Shown here piece after piece: positions 16,895 through 43,784 of a stretch of DNA of 64,000 nt. The notes beneath the pieces are model-generated. The model saw only the letters and a list, made by a program, of their open reading frames with translations. It did not search any database and had not been told where the DNA came from. The position numbers and the translations under genes are program-made. Position 1 is the first letter of the stretch; every line of letters begins with the position of its first letter. Source of the DNA: Acidimicrobiia bacterium (GTDB lineage Bacteria > Acidobacteriota > Vicinamibacteria > Vicinamibacterales > UBA2999). The stretch spans positions 62,001 to 126,000 of the forward strand of contig VFZG01000008.1 of NCBI GenBank assembly GCA_016871275.1, in the 5' to 3' direction.

Positions 16895-16999
16895 CCTGAG
16901 GGGCCTCACGAAAAGCTCGAACCCTGTTGCGTGATGGACCAAGCGTCTGCAGGGCAGAAAGTCCCGCTACCGCCCGTATACTGTGCCTGCTCGCTGTCC

Positions 17000-17173
17000 A
17001 TGCCCGCCCTCACGCCCGGCACCCGCCTCGGTCCCGACGAGATCCTCAACGCCATTGGTGCGGGTGGCATGGGCCAGGTGTATCGCGGGCGCGACACGCG
17101 GCTGGACCGCGTGGTCGCCATCACGGTGCTGGCCGCGAACCTGGCGGCGGACGTGCCGACGACGCCTCGCTGA
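17000..17173 (+). pseudogene. Truncated Ser/Thr protein kinase relic (PknB type)
   Basis: Fifty-seven codons encode the first 55 or so residues of a bacterial Hanks-type kinase and then stop at TGA 17171. GTRLGPDEIL, AIGAGGMGQVYRGRDTRL and VVAITVLAANLAAD align with the usual GTRLGPYEIL, the glycine-rich P-loop and VAIKVLP. The catalytic lysine of VAIK is replaced by Thr and the rest of the kinase is absent, so it cannot be active. Such kinases are very numerous in Acidobacteriota. The decay left the fragment between mrfB and the AtoE-like gene. Confidence 0.75.
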
Positions 17174-17182
17174 TGACTCCCC

Positions 17183-18616
17183 ATGGATGAGCGACCAGGC
17201 TTCGTTGCCAGGACCGCGCTGCGGCTGACGGCGTGGACCGAACGCTGGATTCCCGACGCGTTCATCTTCGCGCTGCTTGCCACGGTGATCGTGTTCGTCG
17301 CGGCGCTGATCTGGACGCCCTCGACCACCGGGCAGGTGATCGATGCATGGGGCGGCGGCTTCTGGGACTTGATCCCGTTCACGCTGCAAATGTCGCTGAT
17401 CATCATCACCGGCCACGTGCTGGCGACCTCGGCGCCGATGGTCAAAGCGATTCGCTCGATCGCCGGCTGGCCGCGCACGCCGCGCGGCGCGATTGCGCTG
17501 GTGACGTTCTTCGCGATGGTCACGTCGTGGTTCAACTGGGGCTTCAGCCTGATCTTCAGCGCGGTGCTGGCGAAGGAAGTGGCGCGGCGCGTGGCCGGCG
17601 CCGACTATCGCGCGTTGGCGGCCGCGAGCCTGATGGGCATTGGCAGCATCTGGGCCCAGGGGCTGAGCGGATCGGCGGCGCTGCAAATGGCGACGCCCGG
17701 GGCGCTGCAGCCGGCGATTCGCGAGATCGTCGCCGGCGGCGGCGTGGTGCCGGGCGGCATCATCCCGTTCCGCGACACCATCTTCCTGTGGCAGAGCCTC
17801 GTCTCGGTGCTCGTCGAGATCGTGGTGGTGGTGTTCGTGATGTGGCTGGCGACCCCGCCCGCGGCGCGCGCCAGGACGGCGCGGATGCTCGGCGTCGAGC
17901 TGGGCGAAAGTGAAGGGCCCGCCTTCGCCAACGCTACGGCGGGCGAGCCAAGCCCCCAGATTCCTCCGGGGGCTTGGCTCGAGCACTCACCGGCGCTCAA
18001 CTGGCTGATTGCCGCGATGGGCTTCGCGTTCCTGTACCGCTACTTCGGGCGCGCCGCCGAGCCGCTCAATGCCCTCAGCGTCAACATCATCAACTTCACG
18101 TTCCTGATGTTCGGCATTCTGCTGCACCGCACGCCGGCCCGGTTGATGCAGGCCGTGGCCAACGCCACGCCGGCGGTGTGGGGCGTGATCCTGCAGTTTC
18201 CGTTCTACGCCGGCATTGCCGCCATCATCACCACCACCCACCTCAACGAGCAGATCGCCAACGCATTCGTCGGCATTTCCACCCGCGAGAGTTTCCCGGC
18301 GGTGGTCGCGATCTATTCCGCGGTGCTCGGCGTGTTCGTGCCGTCCGGCGGATCGAAGTGGGTGATCGAAGCGCCCTACGTGATGGCCGCCGCCCACGAA
18401 TTGAAGGTGCATCTTGGATGGGTGGTGGCGTCCTACGATCTCGGCGAGGCGATCGCCAACCTGCTGCAGCCGTTCTGGATGCTGCCGACGCTGGGGATGT
18501 TGGGGCTGCGCGCCCGCGACGTCATGGGCTACACCTTCATGGTCGCGCTGGTGCTGACGCCGGTGGTGATCCTGCTGGTGACGTTGCTCGGCGCCACGTT
18601 GTCGTACCCGCTTTAA
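17183..18616 (+). CDS. atoE: AtoE-family short-chain fatty acid transporter
   Basis: A 477-residue inner-membrane protein with about 11-12 hydrophobic segments. It matches the AtoE (TIGR00366) pattern from its first residues: WTERWIPDAFIFALLAT, WGGGFWDLIPFTLQMSLIII, SWFNWGFSLIFSAVLAKE and PSGGSKWVIEAPY near the C-terminus. AtoE proteins take up short-chain fatty acids such as acetoacetate or butyrate. Residues 246-268 (about bases 17917-17984) are encoded by a pair of palindromic repeats and interrupt a loop between helices, so the family's usual length is exceeded there. The start is ATG 17183, ten bases after the kinase relic. No fatty acid catabolic genes are adjacent. Confidence 0.88.
   Translation: MDERPGFVARTALRLTAWTERWIPDAFIFALLATVIVFVAALIWTPSTTGQVIDAWGGGFWDLIPFTLQMSLIIITGHVLATSAPMVKAIRSIAGWPRTPRGAIALVTFFAMVTSWFNWGFSLIFSAVLAKEVARRVAGADYRALAAASLMGIGSIWAQGLSGSAALQMATPGALQPAIREIVAGGGVVPGGIIPFRDTIFLWQSLVSVLVEIVVVVFVMWLATPPAARARTARMLGVELGESEGPAFANATAGEPSPQIPPGAWLEHSPALNWLIAAMGFAFLYRYFGRAAEPLNALSVNIINFTFLMFGILLHRTPARLMQAVANATPAVWGVILQFPFYAGIAAIITTTHLNEQIANAFVGISTRESFPAVVAIYSAVLGVFVPSGGSKWVIEAPYVMAAAHELKVHLGWVVASYDLGEAIANLLQPFWMLPTLGMLGLRARDVMGYTFMVALVLTPVVILLVTLLGATLSYPL
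17917..17981 (+). repeat. REP-like double palindrome inside the atoE coding sequence
   Basis: Two adjoining hairpins lie in frame within atoE. The first pairs GCCCGCC (17917-17923) with GGCGGGC (17938-17944). The second is a perfect 14-base inverted repeat, CGAGCCAAGCCCCC (17944-17957) and GGGGGCTTGGCTCG (17968-17981), with a 10-base loop. The first arm starts with GCCCGCCTTCGC, a word also found in the palindrome at 43749. The reading frame stays open through the element. Confidence 0.7.
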
Positions 18617-19099: not shown

Positions 19100-19139
19100 T
19101 AGGCCAATAGGCGAATAGGCCGATAGGCCAAGAGCTCGG
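19100..19139 (+). repeat. Period-8 degenerate tandem array
   Basis: TAGGCCAA, TAGGCGAA, TAGGCCGA and TAGGCCAA are followed by a decayed unit GAGCTCGG. The array ends one base before the aguA stop codon (19141-19143). The second unit resembles the GCGAACGG units at 33385 when read in another phase. Confidence 0.75.
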
Positions 19140-23047: not shown

Positions 23048-23052
23048 AGATC

Positions 23053-23139
23053 GGGCTGCGGGCTGCGGGCTGCGGGCTGCGGGCTGCGGGCTACGGGAGA
23101 TGAACCCGCAGTCCTTAGCCCGCAGCCCGCAGCCCGTTA
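23053..23139 (+). repeat. Period-7 arrays facing each other (large hairpin)
   Basis: Six heptamers on the plus strand (five GGGCTGC then GGGCTAC, 23053-23094) are followed after ten bases by CCCGCAG, TCCTTAG, CCCGCAG, CCCGCAG, CCCGTTA (23105-23139). The halves are complementary and can fold into a long hairpin between lon and engB. The G-rich half also fits a G-quadruplex pattern. The array ends four bases before the lon stop codon. No spacers are present, so it is not a CRISPR array. Confidence 0.8.
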
Positions 23140-43748: not shown

Positions 43749-43784
43749 GCCCGCCTTCGCGCCGCGTGCTTCGGCGAGGCAGGC
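43749..43784 (+). repeat. REP-like imperfect palindrome
   Basis: The left arm begins GCCCGCCTTCGC (43749-43760) and the right arm ends GGCGAGGCAGGC. The pairing has two mismatches. The left word is the same as in the atoE insertion at 17917, so the two probably belong to one dispersed family. It fills most of the gap between ferritin and the cupin gene. Confidence 0.5.

Follow-up and report, generated by a model that had tools for sequence, protein, structure and literature searches.

A dispersed REP-like palindrome, probably mobile, lies in frame within an atoE-like transporter gene

REPs are called extragenic, and palindromes that code for protein were long thought to be a speciality of Rickettsia. 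A sequence-only reading of the DNA treated here likewise supposed that frame-keeping insertion of repeats is hardly noted elsewhere, but published reports are wider than this. Passages in PMC2229807 and PMC2759123 describe palindromes that keep the frame, or small mobile repeats, for Rickettsia, Wolbachia, enterobacteria and Neisseria. Sections of PMC3733652 report that intragenic REPs add residues in several species, the largest numbers being in Opitutus terrae and Rickettsia conorii, with Thauera and others also among the hosts of intragenic palindromes. According to a part of PMC2817692, REP copy number is usually over 100. As to the enzymes involved, TnpA_REP proteins process single-stranded REP hairpins (passages of PMC8266576), and Acidobacteria have a class of Y1 transposases with high-copy hairpins (passages of PMC6006769).

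In the window (the whole stretch of 64,000 nucleotides analysed) two adjoining hairpins occupy 17917-17981 of an open frame, as the sequence-only reading described (Table 1). The encoded protein matches Pfam SCFA_trans (PF02667; E 3.6e-109, residues 9-468) and shares 84.7% amino acid identity with its orthologue in the sister genome G007 (L067/L234). Folded as single-stranded DNA, 17910-17990 gives z = -4.57, and none of 200 shuffles was equally stable; Rfam on 17700-18200 returned five matches, all far below the gathering score and taken as chance. Hairpin 1 has the sequence GCCCGCC-TTCGCCAACGCTAC-GGCGGGC. Its 26-base core (17918-17943) has the stem CCCGCC/GGCGGG, which one outer G-C pair extends to 7 bp. 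Hairpin 2 has perfect arms of 14 bases around a 10-base loop, and is the perfect inverted repeat noticed earlier.

Table 1. Features of the atoE-like gene and of the repeat family in the window
Feature	Position	Strand	Remark
atoE-like short-chain fatty acid transporter gene, host of the insertion	17183..18616	+	477 aa
Hairpin 1, copy of the dispersed REP-like element	17917..17944	+	read as G-PAFANATAG-E
One-sided tag of the element, tail CGAGCC (family consensus CAAGCC)	17944..17949	+	column counts of 57 copies
Hairpin 2 left arm, element tail and sequence like the heptamer tract of the sister genome (CCCAAGC/CCCAAGT)	17944..17957	+	
Hairpin 2 right arm, native coding sequence for PGAWLE, not inserted	17968..17981	+	
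Second copy in the window, CGAG type (GGCGAG then tail GCAGGC), intergenic	43749..43784	+	4 bases after gene end 43745

Two side observations concern this gene and its surroundings. Just upstream, 16931-17173 contains a frame of 80 aa with an early stop, probably a gene remnant, whose sequence (GAGGMGQVYRGRD) looks like the N terminus of a serine/threonine protein kinase. A public MAG contig titled Cyanobacteria bacterium (JAIEMQ010000007.1, L250) carries an atoE that is 85% identical to that of the window; the next close atoE matches (L251, L252) are titled Acidobacteriota/Acidobacterium, so that the label of the former is probably wrong.

The alignment of AtoE homologues that had been proposed as a check found the hairpin absent from all 26 other homologous rows. 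At this site the loop segment has 58 residues in the window protein, 51 in six congeners (L068, L069, L071, L072, L073, L075), 52 in L070 and L074, and 56 in the nearest relative, L067 of G007, which carries a tract of the heptamer units CCCAAGC/CCCAAGT at the insertion site. The net gain is 7, 6 or 2 residues, respectively, and not the 22 or so first suggested. In an AlphaFold2 model of the protein (mean pLDDT 85.4, 16 sequences in the alignment) the insert region sits in a coil at residues 224-261, between helices 203-223 and 262-268, with three helical residues near 227-229. Only residues 243-257, the insert region, have a pLDDT below 50.

The family was searched for with the 26-base core (three free positions, at most 3 mismatches), using the reversed pattern as control. 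The host genome (G000, 3.96 Mb) has 31 places for the core, against 0 for the control, and within the window hairpin 1 is the only match to the central core with a paired stem. Counted with up to 3 mismatches, so that looser members are left uncounted, the core occurs at 9-74 places in the eight other genomes of the genus and at 99 in G038. Across 60 genomes, host included, the places add up to 945 versus 6 for the control, and 48 of the 60 have at least one. A phylum-wide draw of 149 genomes gave matches in 34, among them 10 of the 12 drawn members of the order. Outside the order matches are mostly single, with at least 5 only in G067 (23), G165 (7) and G114 (5), and the stems there, e.g. CCCTCC/GGAGGG or CCAGCC/GGCTGG, differ on both sides.

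Anatomy was analysed in 57 copies, 27 from 2.39 Mb of G007 and 30 from the host, where one of the 31 places (C99) had no locus and was left out. The element consists of the 26-base core and a 6-base tail, about 30-32 bases in all, and has the REP feature of a palindrome of 20-40 bases forming a stem-loop. Most copies show the core followed by CAAGCC, while a second type shows GGCGAG followed by CAGGC. The word that the sequence-only reading had seen recurring outside genes at 43749 is indeed there, as part of a copy of this second type with a slightly longer loop. In the tail, position +3 is A in 43 copies, +4 is G in 47 and +6 is C in 45; the G at +2 of the atoE copy is present in 4.

The paired stem is maintained across the family. 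Pair 4/23 is Watson-Crick in 51 of the 57 copies (shuffle mean 31.1, maximum 39). An independent search in G007 with the central 14 bases only gave 155 matches, 26 of which form at least five of the six stem pairs, compared with 4.2 (maximum 9) when right arms were shuffled; here stem position 4 is paired in 25 of 28 (shuffle 7.05, maximum 14), and G-C, A-T, T-A and C-G pairs are all present. Both sides of pair 4/23 are nonsynonymous in the commonest frame, and from the codons we infer that the hairpin has been conserved at the cost of the protein. Abutting + and - copies were seen in G047 (e.g. C25:29-54 and 54-79) and as one pair in G052, with none noted in the host. The G047 examples at C25:29-79, C264:302-352 and C283:29006-29102, sometimes with a third copy nearby, are like the BIME arrays of REPs.

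The proteins that host copies are mutually unrelated, and all 10 of those scanned have a Pfam match, including FtsQ and an AMP-binding enzyme. Comparison with orthologues covered 11 of the 21 intragenic host copies and one sister genome, at 57-85% identity; the other 10 were set aside, since the fetched part of G007 contains no orthologue close to them. At least 4 extra residues lie at the element in 10 of these 11, as against 2.0% of 3,783 control windows taken from other parts of these host-G007 alignments. The clean insertions are L062 and L059 (10 residues), both read from stop to stop with a stop in the alignment that is presumed to fall in the upstream extension, and L040 and L063 (9 residues). 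In-frame insertion into unrelated protein genes, a feature of Rickettsia palindromic elements, is thus found here as well. No target duplication was evident by eye at the compared insertion sites. Among the 11, only L035 has a trace in G007, in the form of a degraded copy, which suggests turnover; the copies of L042 and L047, outside firmly called genes, are common to both genomes.

Genes were called by codon usage with a caller trained on the window and not taken from an annotated record. Searching the genome for the palindrome and mapping it to coding sequence, also proposed beforehand, placed most copies within genes. Inside host genes lie 21 of 30, all of them read through without a stop, some in sense and others in antisense. 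G007, with a coding density of 0.896, has 16 of 27 fully inside genes, 4 overlapping a gene end and 7 outside, and the core search gave 20 of 26 inside. These intragenic shares are below random placement (p 4e-5 for 16/27, 0.003 for 21/30); copies are fewer in genes than expected by chance, yet far from extragenic. Both genomes together have 37 of 57 copies intragenic, a count in which the L042 copy, overlapping a weak 240-base frame, was entered as non-intragenic by hand, its G007 orthologue (L224, 246-base frame) as intragenic by script, and the L063 copy was assigned to its gene by position.

The intragenic copies are unevenly distributed over the six frames (18, 10, 5, 3, 1 and 0 of the 37; chi-square p 4.9e-7, with frames of the 21 G000 copies assigned by eye from their peptides), and the two favoured frames encode PAFAKATAG-like and PAxALAKAG-like peptides. 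The two subtypes also differ in location, 6 of 18 copies of the CGAG type being inside genes versus 31 of 39 of the others (Fisher p 0.0011), although this split was seen after inspection of the data and its p values are post hoc. It is conceivable, if rather unlikely, that this is one family with two niches, a tiny mobile hairpin of free-living bacteria in which the paired CAAG-tailed type is a specialist of coding sequence, mostly as an in-frame linker, and the CGAG/CAGGC sister type is mostly intergenic (12 of 18); core proteins, FtsQ among them, would then receive new linker peptides from the family.

Tandem arrays of short units were observed alongside the family. The 2.39 Mb of G007 contain 16 arrays of the heptamer CCCAAGC/CCCAAGT, 9 of them inside called genes, and 9 arrays of an octamer (CAAGACCT), 3 of them inside called genes; examples from its stretches (L130-L249) are L145:1365-1471, L234:14170-14191 and L193:12151-12206. 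At three sites, atoE, L053 and L043, G007 arrays occupy the linker that holds a hairpin in the host. The window itself has an 8-base array at 19100-19131 (TAGGCCAA, 4 copies) and a 7-base array at 23052-23097 (CGGGCTG, 6.6 copies).

We read hairpin 1 as a non-autonomous, REP-like mobile element, its AtoE copy lying in a disordered loop and hairpin 2 being a by-product; this reading has a probability of about 0.8. It draws on the repeat family, the stem covariation, the in-gene location, the in-frame insertion relative to orthologues, the frame bias and the low-confidence loop of the model, all observed here. A point against it is that the atoE site itself is only 2 residues longer than that of the nearest relative. 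The element would comprise a stem of 6-7 bp, a 3x3 mismatch, a short inner stem and a one-sided tail CAAGCC (on the other strand, CTTG before the hairpin), and would spread through genomes of the order, landing in genes with only modest avoidance. Copies might persist where the net length change keeps the frame and the site is a tolerant linker, and where the reading frame yields a mild peptide rich in Ala, Thr and Gly (PAFAKATAG or PAxALAKAG). Its atoE insertion would lie in the disordered loop that joins two helices, at the place of the heptamer tract of the nearest relative. Movement may proceed through a single-stranded DNA form of the hairpin, with a Y1 (TnpA_REP/RAYT-like) transposase cutting and joining it in trans.

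Copy number rises with the number of PF01797 (Y1) genes across the 60 genomes (Spearman 0.57, kinship ignored), and the correlation is 0.51 when the element's own genus is left out. Genome size also correlates with copy number (0.34), and two of the 24 genomes with at least 10 copies have no PF01797 match. At none of the five Y1 loci of the host does a copy lie within the 1.5 kb flanks, and within the G007 stretches no copy is nearer than about 1.6 kb to either of two Y1 genes, so that adjacency to a Y1 transposase, sought as proof of mobilisation, was not found in either. Despite this, movement in trans by a Y1 enzyme tentatively appears the likeliest route, a little short of even odds, because of the correlation, the published processing of REP hairpins by TnpA_REP and the Y1 class of Acidobacteria.

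The alternative that survives best, though improbable, is that the hairpins are selected for a task in the host at the level of RNA or DNA, such as mRNA stability, ribosome pausing or the binding of gyrase or a nucleoid protein, and are not mainly selfish. Stem pairing kept in mostly intragenic copies would suit such a task, and passages of PMC3733652 credit REPs with roles of this kind. Against it, the host proteins are unrelated, the single trace of an intragenic copy in the sister genome suggests turnover, and the Rfam scan of 17700-18200 gave no match as high as a gathering score.

Hairpin 2 has to be judged apart from hairpin 1. As a second dispersed repeat it was rejected, since it occurs at one place in the host genome only. 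Perfect repeats with arms of at least 14 bases number 16 in the 2.39 Mb of G007, 2 of them inside called genes; judged in this genome, long perfect inverted repeats are rare inside genes. PGAWLEHS, which its right arm helps to encode, is conserved in near relatives that lack any palindrome. The sequence-only reading, which took all 65 bases as a single REP-like insert in frame, therefore stands for hairpin 1, a genome-wide repeat placed in a transporter linker, and falls for hairpin 2, confined to one place and with a native right arm. Two codons of this arm are uncommon by G007 gene usage (GGG is 10.4% of Gly, GCT 3.6% of Ala). Six of the nine nearest relatives have GGC GCC or GGC GCG at the corresponding Gly-Ala codons, and the other three have GGG GCC, GGC GCA and GGT GCC. 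Third-position changes that complete a palindrome fit template-switch correction of a near-palindrome. Hairpin 2 might be a by-product, formed when the element tail, together with a remnant of heptamer-like sequence, came to complement native codons, the palindrome being perhaps completed by template-switch correction.

Another conceivable origin is local slippage or template switching, by which linkers would lengthen and the hairpin would arise repeatedly in place with no mobile element. The sister genome does have heptamer tracts at the atoE and L053 sites and an octamer tract at L043, and in hairpin 2 the codons GGG and GCT of the right arm agree with its having been corrected against the left one, but slippage cannot yield the same 26-base core and tail at tens of unrelated sites; very improbable for the family, it is the best account of hairpin 2 only. 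Scarcely credible is a native Ala-rich linker whose codons form a palindrome by chance in a GC-rich genome (GC3 about 0.85), a reading that does apply to hairpin 2 in its right arm, which is truly native, and is refuted for hairpin 1 by the 31 occurrences of the core against none in the control, in sense and antisense and also outside genes, by orthologues without the segment, and by stem changes that are compensated even though, in the commonest frame, a change on either side of the pair is nonsynonymous.

An element of 30 bases whose intact copies are mostly intragenic supplies many natural examples of in-frame insertion outside the obligate intracellular bacteria. Two questions become testable, namely to what extent selfish DNA is a source of new linkers for bacterial proteins, and which transposase moves such hairpins. 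The literature searches on palindromic repeats in this group yielded no paper listed as describing this family.

The closest described systems are the GTAG- and CGTC-tagged intragenic REPs, which in the relevant sections of PMC3733652 are likewise dispersed palindromes of 20-40 bases with a one-sided tag, some of them in the frames of conserved proteins and adding residues. They differ in the tag, the tail here being CAAG(CC) (CTTG on the opposite strand), or CAGGC in copies of the CGAG type. The same sections place REPs mostly between genes, whereas most intact-stem copies here are intragenic, and Acidobacteria appear there in passages on transposase-flanking repeats of Koribacter. A cognate RAYT gene flanked by the repeat, as in REPs, was found at none of the five Y1 loci of G000. 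The element is REP-like and not a REP, because it has neither the GTAG/CGTC tag nor the mainly extragenic location.

Rickettsia palindromic elements and Wolbachia palindromic repeats, as described in parts of PMC2229807, also keep the frame and add peptide to unrelated proteins; those of Rickettsia, however, measure 105-146 bases and reside in obligate intracellular bacteria, in contrast to about 30-32 bases here. Enterobacterial RU-1/ERIC and Neisseria Correia elements are likewise small and non-autonomous, and have open frames that are fused into genes; those of Neisseria are intragenic in one size class and intergenic in another. They exceed 100 bases, however, and have the terminal inverted repeats of MITEs (passages of PMC2759123 and PMC2229807), a structure that was not seen in the present element. 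Within the same phylum, the hairpins of class 3 TnpA_Y1, compared by description only, reach high copy (about 600 in Solibacter usitatus) and are associated with Y1 transposases in the passages available from PMC6006769, whereas here no copy lies beside a Y1 gene. Elements of this kind are known. What appears new, as far as the literature was searched, is this particular family, together with its tail, the group that hosts it and its mostly intragenic placement.
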